Shown: positions 1,970-16,340 of the stretch, piece after piece
Numbering within the stretch: position 1 is the first letter of the stretch
Layout of the letters: every line of letters starts with the position of its first letter
The notes under the pieces: generated by a model
What the model was told of the DNA's origin: nothing
The model's input: the letters and a program-made list of their open reading frames with translations, nothing else
The model's database searches: none
Translations under genes and position numbers: made by a program
NCBI GenBank assembly: GCA_017420605.1
Contig: JAFOIS010000160.1
Location: 1-16,732, forward strand
Direction of reading: 5' to 3'
Length of the DNA: 16,732 nt
Source of the DNA: Lachnospiraceae bacterium
GTDB lineage: Bacteria > Bacillota > Clostridia > Lachnospirales > Lachnospiraceae

Positions 1970-3325
1970 ATGGCAACAGCAATCATTATGCCCCGCAACG
2001 GCCAGTCGGTGGAATCCTGCATCATCACCAGCTGGAACAAGAAAGTCGGGGATGAAGTCCACGTCGGCGATATCCTTTTTGCCTACGAGACCGACAAGTC
2101 TTCCTTCGAAGAGGAAGCGAAGATGGACGGCACGCTTCTTGCGATCCTGCATGAAGAAGGCGACGACGTGCCGTGCCTTGAAAATGTATGCGTGATCGGC
2201 GCCCCGGGCGAAGACATTTCCGAATTCACGGGCGGCGCGGCAGCGGCCCCGGCCGCGGAAGAGGCTCCGAAGGCGGAAGCGGCTTCGGCGCCGGTTCCCG
2301 AAAAAGAAGCGGCTCCGGCGGCGAAAGCGACCGCGGAAAAGGCTGTCGGCGTTTCTCCGCGCGCACGCAATACGGCGGCACGCCTCGGCGTTGACCTTGC
2401 GAACGTGACCCCGACCGGACCGAACGGCCGTATCATCGAAAGAGACGTCCTGGCGGCGGAGAAGAGCACTTCCGCGGCCCTGAAGGCGGGCGTACCGGCC
2501 GGCGTTACCGGCACGGGCCTCGGCGGACGCATCACCACGGCGGATATCGAGAACGCGAAGAACGCGCCGAAGGCGGCGGAAGCTGCTCCGGCTGCGGCAC
2601 CCGCGGCAGCGGCAGCGCCGGCATCCGTCGGCTACCGCGACGAGAAGATCACGCGCATGCGTTCGATCATCGGCAAGTCCATGAAGAAGTCGCTGCAGGA
2701 GATCCCGCAGCTTACGCATATGATGTCCTACGACACCACGCAGATCGCCGCGTTCCGCGCCGCCCTCAAGGCGGCTCCGGAGACGCTCGGCCTGCCGAAG
2801 ATCACGATCAACGACATCGTCCTCTTCGCGGTATCGAGAGTCCTTTTGAATCATCCGGCGCTCAATGCGAATACGATCGACGAGAACACGATGCGCTTCT
2901 TCGACCACGTCCATCTCGGCATGGCCGTCGATACGCCGCGCGGACTCATGGTCCCGACGATCTTCAACGCGGACCAGAAGTCGCTTGCGGAGATCGCCGT
3001 CGAGGCGAAGGAACTGGCCGCGAAGTGCCAGGAAGGCTCGATCAGCCCGGATCTCCTTTCCGGCGCGAGCTTCACGGTATCGAACGTCGGCACGATGGGC
3101 GTCGAGTACTTCACGCCTGTCATCAACCCGCCGCAGACCGGCATCCTCGGTGTGGGCGGCATGACCGACCGCATCAAGGTCGTGGACGGCGCGGTGAAGC
3201 CGTACAAGGCAATGGGCCTGTCGCTTTCCTTCGACCATGCCGCGATCGACGGCGCCGGCGCCGCGAAGTTCCTCAAGGAACTTGCGACCGCGCTCGAAAA
3301 CTTCCAGTCCCTGCTTGCAAAATAA
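1970..3325 (+). CDS. 2-oxoacid dehydrogenase E2: dihydrolipoamide acyltransferase
   Basis: A complete 451-residue E2 core enzyme. Residues 1-80 form one lipoyl domain with the lipoylation site at Lys43 in the ETDKSSFE turn. An Ala/Glu/Pro-rich flexible linker follows (about 88-125). Residues 128-163 form a peripheral-subunit-binding domain (SPRARNTAARLGVDL to NGRIIERDV). A half copy of such a domain (GVTGTGLGGRITTADIENA, about 178-196) and a second Ala/Pro linker come next. The catalytic domain runs from about 223 to 451 and carries the active-site FDHAAIDG (His423, Asp427). The enzyme transfers an acyl group from lipoyl-lysine to CoA and forms the core of the complex. The substrate (pyruvate, acetoin or another 2-oxoacid) cannot be fixed from sequence; pyruvate is the default. 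The start has a GGGAGGAAAG ribosome site. It is first in an E2-E3-E1 operon, an unusual order. Confidence 0.93.
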   Translation: MATAIIMPRNGQSVESCIITSWNKKVGDEVHVGDILFAYETDKSSFEEEAKMDGTLLAILHEEGDDVPCLENVCVIGAPGEDISEFTGGAAAAPAAEEAPKAEAASAPVPEKEAAPAAKATAEKAVGVSPRARNTAARLGVDLANVTPTGPNGRIIERDVLAAEKSTSAALKAGVPAGVTGTGLGGRITTADIENAKNAPKAAEAAPAAAPAAAAAPASVGYRDEKITRMRSIIGKSMKKSLQEIPQLTHMMSYDTTQIAAFRAALKAAPETLGLPKITINDIVLFAVSRVLLNHPALNANTIDENTMRFFDHVHLGMAVDTPRGLMVPTIFNADQKSLAEIAVEAKELAAKCQEGSISPDLLSGASFTVSNVGTMGVEYFTPVINPPQTGILGVGGMTDRIKVVDGAVKPYKAMGLSLSFDHAAIDGAGAAKFLKELATALENFQSLLAK

Positions 3326-3337
3326 GAAAAACACGAA

Positions 3338-3366
3338 GCCGGAAGGGGCATCGGGCCCCTTCCGGC
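3338..3366 (+). other. Perfect 12-bp intercistronic hairpin between E2 and E3
   Basis: GCCGGAAGGGGC at 3338-3349 pairs perfectly with GCCCCTTCCGGC at 3355-3366 around a five-base loop. On the plus strand no T-run follows, so it is not a normal terminator there. It may protect or process the upstream mRNA and so set the E2 to E3/E1 ratio. Read on the minus strand it is followed by T-rich sequence, but no minus-strand gene needs it. Confidence 0.7.
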
Positions 3367-3390
3367 GCGTGATGAAGAGAGGATAATACT

Positions 3391-4752
3391 ATGGCATATG
3401 ATGTGATCGTACTCGGCGGCGGCCCCGGCGGATATTCGGCGGCCGAAAAAGCCGGCGCGGCGGGCCTTAAGACCGTCTGCATCGAAGGACGCGCCTACGG
3501 CGGAACCTGCCTTAACGAAGGCTGCATCCCGACCAAGGCGCTTCTGTACTCCGGAAAAATGTATGTGCACGCGAAGGAAGACGTCTACGGTGTGCACGCG
3601 GAAAACGTCACCATTGACCACAACGCCGTCATCGACCGCAAGAACAAGGTCGTGAAGACCCTGGTCTCCGGCGTCGAGGCGACGCTGAAGTCGAAAAAGG
3701 TCGAGATGGTGAAGGAATACGGCAAGGTCGTCGGCAAAGGCGCCGAGGGTTATCTTGTCGAAGCCGGCGGAAAGACCTACGAGGGCAAGAACCTCATTAT
3801 CGCGACCGGCTCGGTCTGCGCGATCATCCCGATCCCGGGCCTTAAGGAAGGCCTGGCCTCCGGTTACGTGCTTACGAACCGCGAACTCCTCGACATGCGC
3901 GAACTGCCGAAGAAGCTTGTTGTCCTGGGCGGCGGCGTCATCGGCCTCGAGATGGCGACGTATCTTGCGATGGTCGGCGTGGACATCACGATCATCGAAA
4001 TGCTGGACCACATCGCCGGCAATACCGATAAGGATCTCGTAAAGGATCTGCAGAAGAGCTGCGAGAAGATGGGCATGCACTTCATCCTCAAAGCGAAGGT
4101 CACCGAAGTGAAGGCCGACCGCGTCGTTTACGAGAAGGACGGCAAGACAATGGAAGCCGAAGCCGACAAGGTCCTCCTTTCCATCGGCCGCCGCGCGAAC
4201 ACGAAGGACGTGGGTCTCGAGAACATCGGCGTGGAGATGAACCGCGGCGCGGTCGTCACCGACGAGCATATGAAGACCAACGTCCCGAACGTCTACGCGA
4301 TCGGCGACGTCAACGCGAAGATCATGCTGGCGCACGTAGCGTACCGCGAGGCGGACGTTGCGGTGAACAACATCCTCGGCATAAAGGATGTCATGCGTTA
4401 CAACGCTGTCCCGTCCGTCATCTACACGCTGCCGGAGCTGTCCTCCGTCGGTGAGACCGAAGAGAGCGCGAAGGCGAAGGGGATCGACGTCCGCGTCATC
4501 AAGCTGCCGATGTCCTATTCGGGCCGGTTCCTGGTCGAGAACGAAGGCGTACGCGGCACGATGAAGCTCGTCTTCAACAAGAAGTACGACACCCTCATCG
4601 GCGCGCAGTTCCTGTGCAACTACTCGTCGGAATTTGTGGCGATCTGCGCGGGATACATTGAAATGGAGCTGACCGCAAAGGATATCCAGCAGATCATCAT
4701 GCCGCATCCGACCGTGGCCGAGATTATCCGCGAAGCTGTGAATCAGTACTGA
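3391..4752 (+). CDS. lpdA: 2-oxoacid dehydrogenase E3: dihydrolipoamide dehydrogenase
   Basis: A complete 453-residue flavoprotein disulfide reductase. The N-terminal FAD fold carries GGGPGG (residues 9-14). The redox-active pair is Cys40/Cys45 in GGTCLNEGCIPTKAL. The NAD-binding fold has VVLGGGVIGLE (about 177-187), a second FAD contact is YAIGDV (302-307), and the C-terminal catalytic His439/Glu444 lie in HPTVAE. It reoxidises the dihydrolipoyl group of E2 and passes electrons to NAD+. The length is normal for E3 and there is no N-terminal lipoyl domain. The start ATG has a GAGAGG site eight bases upstream. It follows E2 by 65 bases, with a stable hairpin between, and precedes the fused E1 by 26 bases; all three should be on one transcript. 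Confidence 0.95.
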   Translation: MAYDVIVLGGGPGGYSAAEKAGAAGLKTVCIEGRAYGGTCLNEGCIPTKALLYSGKMYVHAKEDVYGVHAENVTIDHNAVIDRKNKVVKTLVSGVEATLKSKKVEMVKEYGKVVGKGAEGYLVEAGGKTYEGKNLIIATGSVCAIIPIPGLKEGLASGYVLTNRELLDMRELPKKLVVLGGGVIGLEMATYLAMVGVDITIIEMLDHIAGNTDKDLVKDLQKSCEKMGMHFILKAKVTEVKADRVVYEKDGKTMEAEADKVLLSIGRRANTKDVGLENIGVEMNRGAVVTDEHMKTNVPNVYAIGDVNAKIMLAHVAYREADVAVNNILGIKDVMRYNAVPSVIYTLPELSSVGETEESAKAKGIDVRVIKLPMSYSGRFLVENEGVRGTMKLVFNKKYDTLIGAQFLCNYSSEFVAICAGYIEMELTAKDIQQIIMPHPTVAEIIREAVNQY

Positions 4753-4778
4753 TTACTTAAATAAATAAGGAGAACGAT

Positions 4779-7244
4779 ATGTCAAAACAGGTATACGTAG
4801 ATCCGAAGGCAACGCGCGCGCCGCGCACCATCACCTTCGCGGATATCGACGTCAACAAGTACCAGAAGGCCGTTAAGGACGAGCTCGGGAACATCCCGAA
4901 CGCCGACCTGGTCCAGATCTACAAGGACATGCTCTATGTCCGCGAGTTCGAGACCATGATCCAGAATATCAAGCAGACCGGCGCGTATCAGGGCACGGAA
5001 TACAACCATCCGGGTCCGGCGCACCTTGGCATCGGCCAGGAAGCCGCGTATGTCGGCCAGGCGTATCTGCTTACCACCGACGACTATTCCTTCGGTTCGC
5101 ACAGAAGCCACGGCGAGATCATTGCCCGTGCGATGCGCGCGGTCGAGACGCTTCCGGAAGACAAGCTCCTTGAAATCATGAAGGGCTTCGACGGCGGCAA
5201 GATCATGAAGGTCATCGGCGACTCTTCGGACGACATCCGCATGGTCGGCCGCAACTTCGTCCTTTACGGGATGACGGCGGAGACCTTCGGCCGCGAGAAC
5301 GGCTTCAACCGCGGGCTCGGCGGCTCTATGCACGCGTTCTTCACCCCGTTCGGCGTCTATCCGAACAACGCCATTGTCGGCGGTTCCGGCCCGATCGCGC
5401 CCGGTGCCGCGCTCTATAAGCTCTCCAACCGGAAGCCCGGCATCGTCGTCTGCAACATCGGCGACGGTTCCCTTGCCTGCGGTCCCGTCTGGGAAGGCAT
5501 GGTCTTCTCGACGATGGATCAGATCCGCGAGCTGTGGGGCGACGAGTTCACCGGTATGCCGATCCTCTTCAACATCTGGAACAACAGCTACGCGATGGGC
5601 GGACAGCCGGTCGGCGAGACCATGGGCATGCACGACCACGCCAGGATCGGCGCGGGCCTTATGCCGAACGAGCTGCACGCGGAGAAGATCGACGGCTACA
5701 ATCCGCTGGCCGTCATCGACGCCTACAGAAGGAAGAAGGACATCGTCAAGGAAGACGGCCCGGTCCTCTTCGATATCGTGACCTACCGTTATTCGGGACA
5801 TTCCCCGTCCGACGCTTCCACGTACCGCACCAAGGAAGAGATCGAAGCCTGGGAGAAGGAAGATTCGATCGAAGCCTATGGCAAACAGCTGATCGAAGCC
5901 GGCCTTGCGACCGAGGCGGACCTCGGCGACATGAAGGCGGCTGTCACGGAAGACATGCATCGCAACATGAAGCTCGCGATCGACGAGAAGATCTCCCCGC
6001 GTATCGACGTGTTCGGCAAGACCCCGAACGCGATCGGCGACCTGATGTTCTCGAACCAGGAAGTCAGAAGCTTCGATACGACCCGCAAGGCGGAAGTCAA
6101 TATGCCGTATGAAGAGTCCCCGCGTGCCGTGATGTTCGCGAAGAAGGAACGCAAGGGCATCGACGAGAAGGGCAACCTTGTCGGCAAGAACAAGGTCTAT
6201 CAGATCCGTGACGCGCTGGCAGAACCGATCCTGAAGAAGTTCTACGAGGATCCGACCCTCATCGCCTTCGGCGAAGACGTCCGTGACTGGGGCGGCGCCT
6301 ATGCGGTATACCGCGGCTTTACGGAAACGATCCCGTATCACCGCTTCTTCAACTCCCCGATCTCGGAAGCCGCCATCGTCGGCGCCGGCGTCGGCTATGC
6401 CATGAGCGGCGGCCGCGCGGTCGTGGAGATCATGTATGCCGACTTCCTCGGCCGTGCCGGCGACGAGCTCTTCAACCAGCTCTCCAAGTGGCAGGCCATG
6501 AGCGCCGGCGTGCTGAAGATGCCGGTCGTTGTCCGTATGTCCGTCGGCTCCAAGTACGGCGCGCAGCATTCGCAGGACTGGTCCGCGCTCTGCGCCCATA
6601 TTCCGGGCCTCAAGGTCGTGTTCCCGGCCACCCCGTACGACGCGAAGGGCCTTATGCAGTCCGCGATCAACGGCACGGATCCGGTCATCTTCTTCGAGAG
6701 CCAGCGGATCTATGACTACGGTGAGAGATTCCATCTCGAAGGCGTACCGGAAGCCGAGTACGAGATCCCGATCGGCGAGCCGGATGTCAAGCGCGAAGGG
6801 AGCGACGTCACGATCCTTTCGATCGGCGCGACCCTCTACCGCGTGGTCGAGGCGGCGGATATCCTGAAGGAGAAGTACGGCATTTCCGCCGAGATCATCG
6901 ACGCCCGTTCGCTGGTACCGTTCAACTACGAGAAAGTCATCGAGTCCGTCAAGAAGACCGGCCGCATCATCGTCACCGGCGATGCCTGCGAGCGCAACTC
7001 CTTCATGCGGAACCTGGCCTCCAACATCACCGAGCTGGCCTTCGATTACCTCGATGCCCCGCCGGTCGTCGTCGGCGCGAAGGACTGGATCACCCCGGCC
7101 CACGAGCTCGAGAAGTGCTTCTTCCCGCAGCCGAGCTGGATCATCGATGCGATCCACGAACGCCTGCTTCCGATCCCGGGTTATGTACCGAGCCACAACT
7201 GCACGACGCTCGAACAGATCCGCGAAAACGCCGCCGGCGTATAA
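4779..7244 (+). CDS. 2-oxoacid dehydrogenase E1, fused alpha and beta subunits (TPP-dependent)
   Basis: One 821-residue protein holds both E1 subunits. Residues about 40-410 are the alpha half: SHRSHGE (107-113), GGSMHAF, the thiamine-diphosphate motif starting at GDGS (228-231) and ending at NNSYAMGG (268-275), and the loop GHSPSD (340-345) that corresponds to the phosphorylation loop of pyruvate dehydrogenase. Residues about 411-470 are a linker. Residues about 471-800 are the beta half: IAFGEDV, the cofactor-contacting Glu530 in PISEAAIVG, His597 in AQHSQDW, and the C-terminal transketolase-like fold. It decarboxylates a 2-oxoacid and acylates the E2 lipoyl group. The GDG-to-NN distance is about ten residues longer than the usual ~30. 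A TAAGGAG site precedes the ATG. Fused E1 proteins exist in other bacteria; the substrate here is not determinable, with pyruvate most likely. Confidence 0.92.
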   Translation: MSKQVYVDPKATRAPRTITFADIDVNKYQKAVKDELGNIPNADLVQIYKDMLYVREFETMIQNIKQTGAYQGTEYNHPGPAHLGIGQEAAYVGQAYLLTTDDYSFGSHRSHGEIIARAMRAVETLPEDKLLEIMKGFDGGKIMKVIGDSSDDIRMVGRNFVLYGMTAETFGRENGFNRGLGGSMHAFFTPFGVYPNNAIVGGSGPIAPGAALYKLSNRKPGIVVCNIGDGSLACGPVWEGMVFSTMDQIRELWGDEFTGMPILFNIWNNSYAMGGQPVGETMGMHDHARIGAGLMPNELHAEKIDGYNPLAVIDAYRRKKDIVKEDGPVLFDIVTYRYSGHSPSDASTYRTKEEIEAWEKEDSIEAYGKQLIEAGLATEADLGDMKAAVTEDMHRNMKLAIDEKISPRIDVFGKTPNAIGDLMFSNQEVRSFDTTRKAEVNMPYEESPRAVMFAKKERKGIDEKGNLVGKNKVYQIRDALAEPILKKFYEDPTLIAFGEDVRDWGGAYAVYRGFTETIPYHRFFNSPISEAAIVGAGVGYAMSGGRAVVEIMYADFLGRAGDELFNQLSKWQAMSAGVLKMPVVVRMSVGSKYGAQHSQDWSALCAHIPGLKVVFPATPYDAKGLMQSAINGTDPVIFFESQRIYDYGERFHLEGVPEAEYEIPIGEPDVKREGSDVTILSIGATLYRVVEAADILKEKYGISAEIIDARSLVPFNYEKVIESVKKTGRIIVTGDACERNSFMRNLASNITELAFDYLDAPPVVVGAKDWITPAHELEKCFFPQPSWIIDAIHERLLPIPGYVPSHNCTTLEQIRENAAGV

Positions 7245-10235: not shown

Positions 10236-10264
10236 TGTGTACGGAAACGGTAAAAAATGAAACG

Positions 10265-10284
10265 CCCCGCACCGCGAAGCGGGG
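10265..10284 (+). other. Small GC hairpin in the LysR gene leader
   Basis: CCCCGC (10265-10270) pairs with GCGGGG (10279-10284) around an eight-base loop, ten bases before the GGAGG ribosome site of the LysR gene. No function can be assigned. Confidence 0.35.
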
Positions 10285-10304
10285 GAAAAGGCAGGAGGCT
10301 GGAA

Positions 10305-11237
10305 ATGAAACTTGCACAGCTCGAGCAGGTCATACGGATCACGGCGGAAGGGTCGATCAATAAGGCTGCCGCGTCCCTCTATATCACACAGTCGAATCTG
10401 TCCCAGTCCGTCAGAAATCTGGAGAAGGAGCTCGGCAGACCGATCTTTCTGCGGACCGGCAGCGGTGTGGAACTGACGAAGTTCGGCAGCGACTTCCTTG
10501 TGTATGCACGGGATATCGTCGGCCGCTGCCGCCGGCTGGAGAGCTTCTGCCGGGAAGAACTCGAACCCGTCACCGTCTTTTCGGTATCCTCCTGGCATAT
10601 CGATTTTATTACCCGTTATTTTGCCGAAACGTGCCTGCGGCACGCCGCGGAGCATACAAAGTTCTCCCTGTTTGACGGTACGCTCATCGAGATCCTGGAC
10701 CAGGTGCGGTACCAGCAGAGCGAACTGGGCTTCATTTTCCTGCCGCAGGAGGAACGGAAACAGTTCGAACTCCGGATGAAGGGAATGGGGCTTCTTTTTG
10801 AATCGCTCGTGGTAAGCCCGCTGCGGATCTGTGTGGGAAGCAAAAACCCGCTGTTCCACAGCGCCGAGGAAGCCGTGACGCTGTCGCGTCTCAGGGATTT
10901 TCCGCTGATCCTTTATGAGGACACGCTTTCCTCCTTCTATGATCTTCTGCACGATGCGGGGATCGACGATCATCCGCGCATCATTACCGTATCGGATCAG
11001 TACGCGATGAATTATCTGATGCTGAATACGGAAGGCTTTTCCCTGACGACCGATACCGGCGTATACGGCGTCACCGGGGGAGAAAGAGAGGTGCGGGAAT
11101 TCCGGCCGGAGGGCATAGATATCCAGATCAGCCTCGGTTTCGTCCGGAACAGCAGCCGGCCGCTGTCGCCGGCAGCGGAGGAATTCCTTTCGGGCATCCG
11201 GAAACAGCTGAAGAAGAAAAGTACGTATATCCATTGA
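10305..11237 (+). CDS. LysR-family transcriptional regulator
   Basis: A 310-residue protein. Residues 1-60 form the winged helix-turn-helix of LysR proteins (QLEQVIRITAEGSINKAAAS, then ITQSNLSQSVRNLEKELG and PIFLR). Residues about 85-300 form the periplasmic-binding-like effector domain. The start is ATG 10305, which has AGGAGG eight bases upstream and starts directly at the helix-turn-helix; an ATG 48 bases earlier has no ribosome site. It is divergent from the hydrolase-symporter unit and directly upstream of the MtmB-like/permease pair, so either or both could be its target. The -35 of the next promoter overlaps its stop codon. The ligand is unknown. Confidence 0.9.
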   Translation: MKLAQLEQVIRITAEGSINKAAASLYITQSNLSQSVRNLEKELGRPIFLRTGSGVELTKFGSDFLVYARDIVGRCRRLESFCREELEPVTVFSVSSWHIDFITRYFAETCLRHAAEHTKFSLFDGTLIEILDQVRYQQSELGFIFLPQEERKQFELRMKGMGLLFESLVVSPLRICVGSKNPLFHSAEEAVTLSRLRDFPLILYEDTLSSFYDLLHDAGIDDHPRIITVSDQYAMNYLMLNTEGFSLTTDTGVYGVTGGEREVREFRPEGIDIQISLGFVRNSSRPLSPAAEEFLSGIRKQLKKKSTYIH

Positions 11238-11263
11238 CAGTCTGCATGGGAATTCAATAGAAT
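11234..11263 (+). promoter_or_regulatory. Promoter of the MtmB-like/permease unit
   Basis: TTGACA at 11234-11239 is followed after 18 bases by TAGAAT at 11258-11263. The TTGACA contains the TGA stop of the LysR gene. The leader of about 80 bases can form two weak hairpins (CTGTT/AACAG at 11268-11284 and GTTA/TAAC at 11304-11318). No known riboswitch was recognised in it. Confidence 0.55.
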
Positions 11264-11349
11264 AAATCTGTTACAGGAGAACAGGCATACGGGACCGGAA
11301 AAAGTTACTTACGATAACGCCGCAGGCATGAAATAAGGAGGAACTGTCC

Positions 11350-12708
11350 GTGCACTTTCTTGACATCGTAAACCGGGGCTATACCGGAAAGACGGTATCC
11401 AAAGACGACTGGGATATGAATCACGTCGTAATGCCCATCATAGAGGTCCTTGAGGACTTTGAGCTGGAGAGGGAAGACGGGGCCGTGCTTCTTCACGACG
11501 AAGAGGAAGCCAGGCTCTATTTCGAAGCGGCGGTCGAGCTTCTGCTCCGTTCCGGCGTATACAACCAGTCCACCGGAAAGGTCATGGAGTTTACCAGGGA
11601 GGAGATCCTGGAAGCCGCACGGAACATGAAGCCGGAAGTGACCGTGGGAAACGGCGCGGACGCGTATACCTTCGTCGCGCGCGTTCCCGATGATCCGAGA
11701 CTTCCCGGCGTTGTCGCCGGCAACCCAGGCTGCCCCATGACGGAGGAAACCTTTTACAGGACCGTACTTTCCTGGGCCAAAGAGCCGGTCGTAGACATGG
11801 TCACCTGCGGTTCCCTTGTGGAAGTGGACGGGTTTCCGGTTGTCCGCGATTCGCCCTCCGAAGTGCTGGCGCTGCGCAGGGAAATGAAATACCTCAACGA
11901 GATCTGCGCGAAAGTCGGCCGTCCCGGGATCGGGCGCCTCGCCGCGGAGAGCAGCGTTTCCGAGATCGGCGACCTCGCCGCCATGGCACCGGGCGGTTTC
12001 CAGCCCGGCGACGCGCATCTTGTTTCGTTCAACAATGAGCTCATGATCTCCAATGACAACCTGATCCGTGTGGCAAACGCGATCGGCACGCCGGTCCTCA
12101 ACGCGTCGCTCGCCTGCGTCATGGTCGGCGGCCTTGCGGGGCGCGCGGAAGGCGCCGCGGTCTGCATGATCGCTTCGCTTCTTGCGTCGTCGCTCATCGG
12201 GCGCGCGGATTATCATCTCTGCCATCCGATCCATATCAATTACATCGCGACGTCCACGCCGGAATGCATCTGGCTTTCCAGCGTGGTCTGCCAGGCGTTC
12301 GCGGCCTGTGCGCCGGCCGTCATTATCTGCGACATCTATCCCAAGAGCGGTGCCGGCACGATCGAGCTGCTGCGGGAGGTCGCGGCAAACGCGCTCGCCA
12401 TCACCGTCTCCGGCGGAAACCTCGAAGGCGTCGGTTCCTGCGACGGCATGAAGCCGCACTGTTCGGGGCTGGAAGCCCGCCTCATGGGCGAAGTCGGCAA
12501 AGCCGCCGCCGCGCAGGGCATGACCCGCGCCGAGGCGGAACCGATCATCCTCCGGCTGGTCGACGAATATAAACATGTTTTTGCCAAAGGAAACGAAGGC
12601 CTGCCGTTCGAGGAAGTCTACGACGAAGACGGAAATCCGAGGGACTTCTGGCTGGCCATGTACGAGGAAGTCCGTGCGGAGCTTGCGGACCTGGGTCTTA
12701 AGCTGTAA
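11350..12708 (+). CDS. MtmB-family (monomethylamine:corrinoid methyltransferase-like) protein without pyrrolysine
   Basis: A complete 452-residue protein starting at GTG with a perfect AAGGAGG site seven bases upstream. By eye it aligns along its whole length with archaeal MtmB (about 458 residues, a TIM barrel that moves a methyl group from monomethylamine to a corrinoid protein). Matching blocks include DWDMNHVVM (19-27), GCPMTEETF (127-135), KVGRPGIGRL (188-197), FNNEL (227-231), HLCHPIHIN (289-297) and GLEARLMGEV (373-382). In MtmB, pyrrolysine 202 follows the RPGMGV block. The matching position here is Leu197, codon CTC at 11938-11940, and the frame has no internal TAG. The catalytic residue for methylamine is therefore absent, so the substrate is probably different or the protein has another role. 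It is followed by a xanthine/uracil-type permease. No corrinoid protein or reductive activase is in view. Confidence 0.85.
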   Translation: MHFLDIVNRGYTGKTVSKDDWDMNHVVMPIIEVLEDFELEREDGAVLLHDEEEARLYFEAAVELLLRSGVYNQSTGKVMEFTREEILEAARNMKPEVTVGNGADAYTFVARVPDDPRLPGVVAGNPGCPMTEETFYRTVLSWAKEPVVDMVTCGSLVEVDGFPVVRDSPSEVLALRREMKYLNEICAKVGRPGIGRLAAESSVSEIGDLAAMAPGGFQPGDAHLVSFNNELMISNDNLIRVANAIGTPVLNASLACVMVGGLAGRAEGAAVCMIASLLASSLIGRADYHLCHPIHINYIATSTPECIWLSSVVCQAFAACAPAVIICDIYPKSGAGTIELLREVAANALAITVSGGNLEGVGSCDGMKPHCSGLEARLMGEVGKAAAAQGMTRAEAEPIILRLVDEYKHVFAKGNEGLPFEEVYDEDGNPRDFWLAMYEEVRAELADLGLKL

Positions 12709-12811: not shown

Positions 12812-14398
12812 TTGGAAACCAAAAAGAAAAGCCTGATACCGTTCTTTACGGAAGGCGACGTAGGCGGCCTGATCTACATGGTCGCGAACAACATCGTCAA
12901 CTACATCATCGTCATCGCGACACTGCAGGGATTTGAATGGCCGAACGAGATCATTTTCGGCCGCGTGATCCCGGGCCTTTCGCTCGGACTTCTGTGCGGA
13001 GGCGTATACTATGCGGTCATGGCATGGAGACTTTCAAAGAAGCTCGGGACGCCGAATGTGACGGCGCTGCCCTCCGGCATTTCCACGCCGGCCATGTTCG
13101 TTATCCTGTTCGGCGTCATCAGCCCGATCCACTACGCGATCGGCGATCCGGAGCTTGAATGGGCAGCCGCGACGGCCGCCTGCTTCATCGGCGGTTTCGT
13201 GGAATTCCTCGGCGGCTTCATCGGCCCGTGGGTCAAGAAGCATCTTCCGCGCGCGGCCCTGCTCGGCACCGTCGCCGGCATCGGCTTCATCTGGATGGCG
13301 ACCCAGGGCGTGTTCGACGTCTTCGGCGATCCGGTCGTCGGCCTTCCGATCCTTGCCGTCGCCATGCTCGGCGTCTTCGCCGGTTATCTCTTCCCGAAGA
13401 AGATCTCCCCGTTCCTGGTTGCGATCGTCGGCGGTATCGTTTACGCGTTCTGCCTGGGACGCACCACGGTGGATTTCAGCCAGGTCGGTTTCTACTTCCC
13501 GAATCCGGCGAACACGGTACAGTCCCTCATCAACGGCTTCGCTTATGTCGTGCCGTATCTTACGGTCGTCATCCCGGTCGAGATCTACAACTTCATCGAA
13601 ACGATGGACAACGTGGAATCCGCGAATGCGGCCGGCGATCCGTATAACGTCCGCGAGGCGCAGTTCGCCGACGGTATCTGCACCATGATCTCGTCGCTCT
13701 TCGGCGGCGTCGTTCCGAACACGGTCTGGCTCGGCCATCCGGGTCTTAAGAAACAGAAAGCCGGCGCCGGCTACAGCTGGATCGGCGGCCTGATCCTCGG
13801 TCTTGCCGGTTTCCTCGGCCTGTTCACGGTCCTTGCGGAACTTGTCCCGCCGGCAGTCGCCGCCATCACGTACATCTGGTGCGCGGTCATCATGGTGGCA
13901 CAGGCCTTCAAGGAATGCAATGTCAAGCACTATGCGGCCATCGGCATCGCCATGGTCCCGTCCATTGCCGACTATCTGTTTACGCAGGTGGAAGCTTCGC
14001 TGGCGACCGGTTCCATGATGGAAGGCGGCTGGGGTATCTGGTCGGAAGCGCTGGAAAGCGGCCTCAAGGGATTCCAGCCGGAAGTCGATGAGCTCCTGAT
14101 CGCCAACGGCGCCATGTGGAATGGTGTTCCGGCAGTCAAGGCCGGCGCGATCATCATCGGCATCCTGCTTGGCTCCATGTGTGTCTTTATGATCGACCAC
14201 AAGCTCCGCAGCGCGGCGGTCATTGCGCTTGCCGGCGCGGTCCTTGCATTCTTCGGGTTCATCCACCATGCGGCGCTCGGCATCTATCCGACTTCGCCGT
14301 TCATGATCGGCTGGCTCATCGTCGCGGCCCTGCTCTTTATCTTCAGCTTCGGAGAAGGAAAGTGGTTCAAGGCGCAGGACGACTTCAATTACGTCTGA
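12812..14398 (+). CDS. Xanthine/uracil-type permease (AzgA/NCS2-like)
   Basis: A 528-residue integral membrane protein with 12 or more hydrophobic segments. It resembles the bacterial xanthine/uracil/vitamin C permease group: an N-terminal FFTEGDVGG motif, NEIIFGRVIPG, NVTALPSGISTP (82-93), and a mid-protein IPVEIYNFIETMDNVESA segment corresponding to the family's conserved transport region. Family members move purines, pyrimidines or related rings with H+ or Na+; the true ligand here is unknown. The start is TTG at 12812 with GAGAGGGGG about nine bases upstream. The next in-frame ATG lies inside the first membrane segment and is unlikely. It is 103 bases downstream of the MtmB-like gene and should share its transcript. 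The pairing suggests that the permease brings in the methyltransferase substrate, which is inference. Confidence 0.85.
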   Translation: METKKKSLIPFFTEGDVGGLIYMVANNIVNYIIVIATLQGFEWPNEIIFGRVIPGLSLGLLCGGVYYAVMAWRLSKKLGTPNVTALPSGISTPAMFVILFGVISPIHYAIGDPELEWAAATAACFIGGFVEFLGGFIGPWVKKHLPRAALLGTVAGIGFIWMATQGVFDVFGDPVVGLPILAVAMLGVFAGYLFPKKISPFLVAIVGGIVYAFCLGRTTVDFSQVGFYFPNPANTVQSLINGFAYVVPYLTVVIPVEIYNFIETMDNVESANAAGDPYNVREAQFADGICTMISSLFGGVVPNTVWLGHPGLKKQKAGAGYSWIGGLILGLAGFLGLFTVLAELVPPAVAAITYIWCAVIMVAQAFKECNVKHYAAIGIAMVPSIADYLFTQVEASLATGSMMEGGWGIWSEALESGLKGFQPEVDELLIANGAMWNGVPAVKAGAIIIGILLGSMCVFMIDHKLRSAAVIALAGAVLAFFGFIHHAALGIYPTSPFMIGWLIVAALLFIFSFGEGKWFKAQDDFNYV

Positions 14399-14458: not shown

Positions 14459-14490
14459 GAAAAGCCGCAGCATGTACGCTGCGGCTTTTC
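14459..14490. terminator. Bidirectional terminator between the permease and rubrerythrin genes
   Basis: GAAAAGCCGCAGC (14459-14471) pairs perfectly over 13 bp with GCTGCGGCTTTTC (14478-14490), with a six-base loop. The A-tract/T-tract ends make it work on both strands. It lies between two convergent genes. Confidence 0.92.
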
Positions 14491-14542: not shown

Positions 14543-15205
14543 TCAGTAGTTTTCCGCGTTGATCTCGAAGTAACTCTGCGGATGCGCGCAGACCGGGCAG
14601 ACTTCCGGGGCGGCCGTGCCCACGACGATATGGCCGCAGTTGCGGCATTCCCATACCTTGACTTCGCTCTTTTTGAACACTTCCTGCGCTTCTACGTTCC
14701 GAAGGAGGGCACGGTAGCGTTCTTCATGATGCTTCTCGATCGCGGCGACCATGCGGAATTTCGCTGCCAGCTCCGGGAAGCCTTCCTTCTCCGCGGTGAC
14801 GGCAAAGCCTTCGTACATATCCGTCCACTCGTAGTTTTCACCGTCCGCGGCGGCGGCCAGGTTCTCCGCCGTGCTGCCGATGCCGTTCAGTTCCTTGAAC
14901 CACATTTTCGCGTGTTCTTTTTCGTTGTCGGCGGTCTTCAGGAACAGGGCAGAAATCTGCTCAAAACCGTCCTTTTTGGCGCGGGAGGCGAAATAGGTGT
15001 ATTTGTTGCGGGCCTGGGATTCACCGGCAAACGCGGCTTCCAGGTTTTTCTCTGTCTGTGTGCCGGCGTAGGGGTTCTTCTTCGGCGCTTCCGCTTCGAC
15101 CTTCACGAATTTCGACGCGGGCTGCTTGCAGACCGGGCATCTGAAATCCTCCGGCAGGGGACCTTCGTGTATATAACCGCAGACTGAGCATTTCCACTTT
15201 TCCAT
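14543..15205 (-). CDS. rbr: Rubrerythrin (NADH-peroxidase type) with two rubredoxin domains, internal start
   Basis: From ATG 15205 a 220-residue protein can be made on its own. An AAAAAAGGAGG site eight bases upstream is the best ribosome site in the window, yet it lies inside the ferredoxin-like reading frame. Residues 6-26 form an N-terminal rubredoxin (Cys6, 9, 23, 26). Residues about 50-175 form the ferritin-like diiron domain with ligand motifs [19 protein letters not shown] and EKHHEERY. Residues 187-206 form a C-terminal rubredoxin (Cys187, 190, 203, 206). This layout is common in anaerobic Bacillota, where such proteins reduce hydrogen peroxide to water in the cytosol. The product overlaps the fused entry exactly, and the two should be read as alternative products of one locus. 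Confidence 0.85.
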
Positions 15206-15706
15206 TGTATTTTCCTCCTTTTTTATAACAGGTTCGTTGCAGGGGAGCGTTTCCAAAAGGAAATGCAGGGCTTCTTTCGGGAAGCCCGATTCCGTCTCAA
15301 ACGCGAGCATATCCTCGAGCATAAGATGCGCATTGGCGCTCTGCGGAAGCATGTATCCGGCCTCCCGAAGAAGATCTTCGGCCATGATCCGGCTGGATCT
15401 TTTCAGTGCTTCTGCATAAGGACCGGGGAGTCCTCCGGCGATCATTTCCTGCTCCGCTTTGCTGCTGACGAGCTGGCGGAGCGCCGCGGCCACTTCTTCC
15501 GTCTTGGCTTGCTGCGGCGGATATTCGCGCGGGACAAGGCTGATGGCTTTCGAGGGACAGGCGTCTGCGCAGGCGCCGCAGCCGGTGCATTTTTCCGGAT
15601 CGATCACGCTGTTTTCCGTGTCGGACGCGCCGGTAGGACAGACATAAAGGCAGAGACAGTCTTTTTCGCACAGCCGGATATTTCTGACGGCTACTTTTTC
15701 ACCCAT
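14543..15706 (-). CDS. Ferredoxin-like domain fused in frame to double-rubredoxin rubrerythrin
   Basis: A 387-residue open frame from ATG 15706 (GGAGG seven to eight bases upstream) to TGA at 14543. Residues 1-60 are ferredoxin-like: a first set [12 protein letters not shown] (Cys13, 17, 19, 23, an altered CxxxCxCxxxCP spacing) and a canonical [12 protein letters not shown] set, so one or two [4Fe-4S] clusters. Residues about 65-167 are a helical region not recognised. A short linker (IKKEENT) leads directly to the rubrerythrin part from residue 168. No stop codon separates them. The ATG lies four bases after the stop of the double-rubredoxin gene, so the two are translationally coupled. Either a true fusion is made, or this is two genes in which the first lost its stop. 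An electron relay from ferredoxin to the diiron peroxidase site would make sense; that is inference. Confidence 0.7.
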
Positions 15707-15710
15707 ATGC

Positions 15711-16340
15711 TCATCCTCCGATCTTTTCAAATTTGCGGTTCGGGACCTTGCATACCGGACAGACCTCCGGCAGCGTATCGCCCACATATACGAAACCGCA
15801 GATGGTGCACACGTATACGCCGGTGTTTTCCGGCAGGGTATCCCCCTCCCGTTCGTAACGGGTGAGAAGGGATTTCAGGATGCGCGTTACTTTTTCGCTC
15901 CAGACAAGGCTCCGCAAGGCGCCGCGGTCGCCATTCTCTTTCGCGGCGGCGTTTGCCGCAGGGAAAAGCGTGCCGAGATCGGCGTTTACCAGTTCCAGAA
16001 GCCGGCTGAAAGAAGGATCGGCCGGTTTTTCGTACTGCGTCCCGAACCAGTCCGCCAGTTTCCGGAAGGCGGCCGCCTGCTCGGGCAGGTACTGTTTTTC
16101 ACACCCCCTGGCAAGATTGGAACAGAGCGCAGCGGTCTCAATGGCCGAAAGAGGTTTCAGCGCGGCAGCCTCCGATGAGACCGCATCCGTATCTGCCGCG
16201 GACGGGGCCGCTCCTTCGGGAACGAAATCCGCTTTGGCAGCGCCGCAGAGAGGACACTTCCAGTCCTCCGGCAGGTCCGCCCAGGGGACGTTTCCCGCTT
16301 CGTCATAAACGTAACCACAGATTGAGCAAATATACCGCAT
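15711..16340 (-). CDS. Double-rubredoxin protein with helical middle domain
   Basis: A 209-residue protein with GGAAGGAGG six bases before its ATG. The N-terminal rubredoxin has Cys5, 8, 29, 32 in [12 protein letters not shown] and [11 protein letters not shown], with a shortened loop between the pairs. The C-terminal one (Cys178, 181, 194, 197; [20 protein letters not shown]) is of the compact rubrerythrin type. Residues about 60-165 are predicted helical with [18 protein letters not shown]. No ferritin-like ExxH pairs are visible there, so it is probably not a diiron enzyme. It is likely a cytosolic electron carrier for the rubrerythrin encoded just downstream, or a rubrerythrin relative that lost its iron site. 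It is the first gene of the operon and is driven by the promoter at 16410-16438. Confidence 0.78.

Follow-up and report, generated by a model that had tools for sequence, protein, structure and literature searches.

A pyrrolysine-free MtmB homologue from Lachnospiraceae with a seemingly rebuilt pocket and a conserved permease partner

The stretch of DNA analysed here, called the window (16,732 nucleotides, contig JAFOIS010000160.1 of the Lachnospiraceae assembly GCA_017420605.1), encodes a pyrrolysine (Pyl)-free member of the MtmB methyltransferase family that has the MtmB fold and belongs to a single clade marked by Leu, Leu, Leu and Asp (LLLD) at MtmB positions 202, 229, 259 and 333. Its gene and that of an NCS2/AGZA-type permease form a conserved two-gene unit. 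The explanation that we prefer, tentatively and with somewhat less than even confidence, is that the protein is an MtmB-fold MT1 with a rebuilt pocket, and that an imported, N-methylated, purine-like donor would be demethylated through the corrinoid protein encoded on contig C85 of the same genome. The relevant features of the window are the following.

10257-11237, + strand: gene for a LysR-type regulator, 5' of the mtmB-like gene (Pfam)
11234-11263, + strand: promoter-like TTGACA-18-TAGAAT, 11 of 12 matches (three such in the region against 1.2 expected, which is not proof)
11335-11342, + strand: ribosome-binding-site-like AAGGAGGA before the GTG (sequence)
11350-12708, + strand: gene for the Pyl-free MtmB homologue, 452 residues, GTG start, TAA stop
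11806-11808, + strand: Cys153 codon, directly after strand E150-152; 124/124 of the clade against 5% of 40 others
11938-11940, + strand: CTC codon of Leu197, facing the Pyl202 column, where barrel strand E195-197 ends (alignment)
12019-12021, + strand: Leu224 codon, at MtmB Glu229; Leu in 124/124 examined clade members (alignment)
12109-12111, + strand: Leu254 codon, at MtmB Glu259; 124/124 examined clade members (alignment)
12115-12117, + strand: Cys256 codon, directly after strand E250-255; 124/124 of the clade against 7% of 40 others
12220-12225, + strand: Cys291 and His292 codons, end of strand E288-291; 124/124 of the clade against 0/40 others
12331-12333, + strand: Asp328 codon, at MtmB Gln333; 124/124 examined clade members, clade-specific
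12812-14398, + strand: NCS2/AGZA-type permease gene, 528 residues, TTG start, 3' of the mtmB-like gene
14459-14490, + strand: terminator-like hairpin of 13 pairs, 3' of the permease gene (five such in the region against 3.6 expected, which is not proof)

The open reading frame at 11350-12708 contains no in-frame stop, and at position 202, where Pyl-MtmB has pyrrolysine encoded by an in-frame TAG, it has Leu197 encoded by CTC. In a Pfam profile search of the window, PF05369 matched residues 3-450 of the 452 with 282.6 bits (cut-off 25 bits), and the protein matched no other Pfam family at E 0.001. Structure comparison gave the TIM-barrel fold of MtmB, at 1.4 Å over the whole length and 31% identity. 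Leu197 faces the X at Pyl202 in the pairwise alignment with 1l2q (M. barkeri MtmB), and multiple alignments concur. The initial annotation had assigned the protein to the MtmB family over its length, with leucine at the pyrrolysine column and no in-frame TAG, and these claims hold; neither a placement outside PF05369 nor a displaced Leu197 was obtained. Given the low dN/dS (0.08-0.11 between the window and eight relatives), the ORF looks like a working gene. A hidden pyrrolysine codon is ruled out by the absence of an internal stop, a pseudogene by dN/dS, and chance similarity to MtmB by the PF05369 score together with the structure match. One TAG is present in G461 and G406, two relatives of the class, and no relative was found on plasmid records.

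The LLLD combination occurs in 124 of 164 sequences of at least 400 residues, with identity to the window protein going down to 52%. These 124 are the best 120 of 905 relatives minus one fragment, plus the window protein and loci L002-L005; a second relatives search contributed the best 120 of 319, and the signature counts are drawn from the matches listed. The length limit excluded one clade member (P0110) and many half-length Pyl-MtmB fragments, and four further loci outside the count also carry LLLD. Three Pyl enzymes show Lys (for Pyl)-Glu-Glu-Gln, and the remaining 37 of the 164 show many other combinations. In a family tree of the kind that the initial annotation had called for (74 rows, of which 35 were drawn from the 124 of the clade; P0229 was omitted), the LLLD rows form one side of a single branch with 100/100 support; a link between the clade and the pair from G002 C72 and G021, supported at 87/61, may be a long-branch effect. 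Five full-length sequences (P0126-P0128, P0132 and P0134) have Lys at the Pyl column, either true lysine or a re-read TAG, and Leu or Val at 229, yet keep Glu259 and Gln333.

MtmB Glu229, Glu259 and Gln333 are taken here to be the contacts of the pyrroline ring, and the 1l2q sequence bears Glu, Glu and Gln at these aligned positions. None of the three was found in the clade, which has Leu, Leu and Asp in 124/124 examined members; the two presumed acidic contacts are thus leucines in the window protein, and the old site appears to have been rebuilt, not kept. Moreover, Cys153, Cys256, Cys291, His292 and Asp328 are placed in or directly after the ends of barrel strands, and because clade-specific invariants gather there, the pocket looks rebuilt rather than decayed. 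The comparison with the MtmB structure proposed in the initial annotation gave a matching fold, and the alignment shows different residues at 229, 259 and 333. The same annotation had pointed to the glutamate of FNNEL (Glu230) as retained and possibly still catalytic. It is indeed kept family-wide (95% of 40 sequences outside the clade), but it equals MtmB Glu235, whereas MtmB Glu229 aligns with Leu224, and Glu230 is ruled out as the retained catalytic glutamate. A Pyl-free branch acting on another methyl donor, as had been suggested, is probably what these sequences represent. The LLLD clade is a defined target, since its rebuilt pocket is invariant and its gene neighbourhood offers a clue to what the substrate may be, and it bears on the question of gain versus loss of pyrrolysine in the MtmB family.

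The permease gene, which the initial annotation did not mention, follows the mtmB-like gene in all nine loci with downstream sequence (window, L002-L005 and L065-L068). Purifying selection acts on both genes, with dN/dS of about 0.05-0.12, and in all eight permease genes whose starts were examined a TTG start comes after a GGGGG-type Shine-Dalgarno-like stretch. Comparison of the MtmB and permease match lists gave five equal-sized contig pairs where about 0.9 would be expected (approximate; the P0295 entry, among others, is unreliable), which hints that the pair persists in more distant members. The LysR gene of the window was not found by tblastn in other loci of the clade and is perhaps local to the window. 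An Rfam search covered 11 sources, four further loci being omitted because of their size, and gave a match in L016 only; hence neither the window nor the included clade loci yielded a riboswitch.

The window protein is thus like Pyl-MtmB of M. barkeri (1L2Q/1NTH) in its PF05369 match and its fold, but it differs in the lack of pyrrolysine, in Leu/Leu/Asp instead of Glu/Glu/Gln, in having no adjoining corrinoid gene that could be found, and in the adjoining permease. The MttB superfamily (Pyl-free MtgB and others) is a separate sequence family, with 11-13% structural identity to the window protein, which falls outside it. The initial annotation could name no Pyl-free MtmB of known function, a statement overtaken by MtqB of Methanococcoides methylutens Q3c, which the available text of a March 2026 paper presents as the first with a demonstrated function (PMC13044021). 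Its activity there is 42 nmol/min/mg with choline, 37 with tetramethylammonium and 11 with methylamine, and its partner MtqC has the adjacent locus tag (PMC13044021). In the published tree (n=1,061), going by its Figure 6 legend, the MtqB clade lies near the Pyl enzymes and the other non-Pyl MtmBs have no known function (PMC13044021). MtqB shares the family and the lack of pyrrolysine with the window protein, and is set apart by its description as archaeal, MtqC-dependent and assigned to tetramethylammonium and choline. A protein of ‘Ca. Formimonas warabiya’ DCMF, likened by description, is a bacterial, Pyl-free MtmB and belongs to the same superfamily; the accessible portion of its report gives it the highest fold change on dichloromethane and about 30% identity to other proteins of the family (PMC9768040).

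By analogy with MtqB, the window protein could transfer methyl groups from quaternary amines, for instance choline or tetramethylammonium, to a corrinoid protein, and a quaternary ammonium group could suit the more hydrophobic pocket. However, MtqC is encoded beside MtqB whereas the window gene has no corrinoid gene found alongside, the window permease is of nucleobase type, and the position of MtqB near the Pyl enzymes leaves the remaining non-Pyl MtmBs functionally unassigned (PMC13044021, as far as its legend goes), all of which makes such a role unlikely.

The absence of a nearby partner raises another alternative, in which the enzyme would be corrinoid-free and Cys153, Cys256, Cys291, His292 and Asp328 would constitute a novel metal or thiol site for a different reaction on a nucleobase-like substrate. 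These five residues are invariant in 124/124 examined members, rare elsewhere and situated at or after barrel-strand ends, and a corrinoid gene beside the mtmB-like gene was found in 0/9 loci. Indeed, tblastn detected no corrinoid protein, activator or homocysteine methyltransferase (HcyMT) in the available flanks of the nine clade loci (those of L002 and L067, for example, are short), and an adjoining corrinoid gene like that seen at the Pyl genes L023 and L024 was not found there. Against this stand the overall fold, very close to MtmB at 1.4 Å, and the derivation of the putative metal site from sequence positions, and we regard a corrinoid-free enzyme as improbable.

In the preferred explanation, the partner would be encoded elsewhere in the genome. 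The window genome yielded a single PF02607/PF02310 corrinoid protein. Its gene lies on contig C85, where two HcyMT genes precede it and DUF2284 and then RACo follow, and it is provisionally paired with the mtmB-like gene because it is the only one found. No MetH-like frame or PF00809 match was found in this genome, whose completeness of 93.9% means that absence is not proof. Its RACo is split, with C-terminal matches at C85:70-366 and C162:4004-4201, each at a contig end, and the two partial matches probably belong to one gene that the assembly has broken; RACo is present in 8/8 genomes searched, five of them belonging to the LLLD clade. Exactly one such corrinoid protein occurs in seven of the nine genomes with an LLLD gene, and none was found in the other two (G467 and G480), both known from short contigs. 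In G468, G470, G472, G481 and G488 its neighbours are a URO-D-family protein, DUF2284 and RACo, while in G469 these three lie on a different contig from the corrinoid protein; a 407-residue protein with no Pfam match at E 1e-5 is encoded directly 5' of that lone corrinoid protein (L041:6548-7771). HcyMT is likewise part of the corrinoid cluster in G497, and in G470 it is encoded 5 kb away from the cluster.

The same corrinoid subtype (at least 70% identity) is found in 7 of 36 compared relatives without a PF05369 match, near a URO-D-family protein in five of the seven, which implies that it can serve other partners. Its co-occurrence with the clade (7/9 genomes against 7/36 relatives, Fisher 0.002, kinship ignored) is not proof, since kinship is left out of account and the corrinoid protein persists in close relatives that lack mtmB. 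Regarding the acceptor, G468 and G470 encode a PF00809 protein 47-49% identical to that of G029, which is directly 5' of a corrinoid protein and RACo, and by this resemblance tetrahydrofolate may be the methyl acceptor in those two genomes. As for methionine, folate-independent synthases have been described that probably depend on corrinoid proteins (PMC7857596, in the text available), and glycine betaine demethylation has been linked to methionine synthesis (PMC12478193, from the accessible part).

The nature of the donor is suggested by the permease. In structure comparison it resembles the UraA/UapA-type fold, with SLC26 anion transporters tying with UraA in Z, and, unlike NCS2/AzgA-type carriers (UraA, UapA, AZG), it has no PF00860 match, nor any other Pfam match even at E 10. 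Among the matches listed, the named homologues are nearly all annotated as xanthine/uracil/vitamin C or AGZA permeases. Two relatives with 65% identity have adenine-deaminase-type genes on one side and a nucleoside-phosphorylase-type gene on the other (neighbour families scored for G309 only), and since both come from one genus (two genomes) they count as one case. A corrinoid methyltransferase with a non-purine donor brought in by this permease, such as another N-heterocycle or a methylated acid, would fit the diverse solutes carried by the UraA/SLC26 fold and the missing Pfam assignment, but the names of the listed homologues and the relatives beside adenine-deaminase-type genes make it quite improbable.

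Purine-related genes also accompany the other Pyl-free MtmBs of the genus, in which PF05369 occurs in 4 of 42 genomes, the window genome included. Corrinoid protein, mtmB and 8-oxoguanine deaminase follow one another in G021 and on G002 C72; the deaminase of G021 scores 577.9 bits (cut-off 532), its G002 C72 counterpart is 79% identical to it, and XdhA comes next in G021 on the other strand (1104 bits, cut-off 780). On G002 C103, a cobalamin riboswitch (L016:2960-3135, 109.7 bits against a cut-off of 31.5) is on one strand with genes for a corrinoid protein and MtmB and with an XDH fragment. One corrinoid protein-mtmB pair of G014 is followed by a PF00860 permease, whose best NCBIfam model is the xanthine permease TIGR03173 (326 bits, under the cut-off of 414), and a second mtmB-corrinoid pair has no purine gene directly adjoining. 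Purine genes thus lie beside corrinoid protein and mtmB in 4/5 loci, against 0/9 corrinoid loci without mtmB (from 11 such contigs in the genus, with the window's C85, likewise without a match, left out); the association (Fisher 0.005) is suggestive only, the probes having been taken from positive loci, several of the nine being short and the loci being related.

Two further observations concern G014. A very divergent MtmB homologue (L018:15448-16863, signature TLET, 23% identity to the window protein) has its own corrinoid gene and no purine gene as a direct neighbour. In L050, RACo is lined up with genes for an 8-oxoguanine-deaminase-like protein, DUF1638, a URO-D-family protein, DUF5714 and a CobW-like GTPase; in this stretch the deaminase-like gene scores 495.7 bits (cut-off 532), and a CO-dehydrogenase-type flavoprotein C-terminal domain is also present.

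According to the preferred explanation, the permease would import a small N-methylated, purine-like compound, which the barrel would bind over a floor lined with leucine, where Asp328 would be the only polar group among the four, in an anionic cleft deprived of two acidic side chains, now leucine. The Co(I) of the corrinoid protein, presumably the lone stand-alone protein of C85, would attack and take the methyl group directly, with no need for a pyrrolysine adduct, and the methyl would then pass to homocysteine, giving methionine, or to another acceptor. Several findings weigh against it: the purine link is direct only in divergent MtmBs outside the LLLD clade (23-34% identity to the window protein; signatures GHFM, TQGI and TLET), and one of their five loci lacks an adjoining purine gene; no corrinoid gene was found beside any of the nine clade genes, none at all was found in G467 and G480, and the corrinoid subtype occurs with other partners; the acceptor in G468 and G470 may be tetrahydrofolate; and the permease has no Pfam family and scores equally with SLC26 anion transporters and UraA. 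A more specific version is distinctly doubtful: a B12-dependent N-demethylase of gut anaerobes for methylated purines (methylxanthines, or methylguanine and methyladenine from nucleic acids), in which permease, LLLD barrel, lone corrinoid protein and homocysteine S-methyltransferases would yield methionine without folate. If the genetic clue holds, it would point to an oxygen-free route for N-methyl removal from purines in gut and rumen. Searches of open-licence literature gave nothing relevant that connects purines or methylxanthines with either MtmB or corrinoid demethylation; in the text available, a genome paper makes no connection between corrinoid demethylation and purines (PMC4791908), and a methylxanthine review names Pseudomonas ndm enzymes only (PMC11332652).

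Elsewhere in the window, a 2-oxo acid dehydrogenase operon (1970-7244, + strand) encodes E1 alpha and beta fused in 821 residues (Pfam), preceded by E2- and E3-like genes, as judged by eye. Downstream of the two-gene unit, positions 14543-15787 (- strand) encode a protein of 414 residues whose N-terminal part is of 4Fe-4S type and whose C-terminal part is a rubrerythrin, and the adjoining gene at 15711-16340 encodes 209 residues, with a rubredoxin-like domain at either end.
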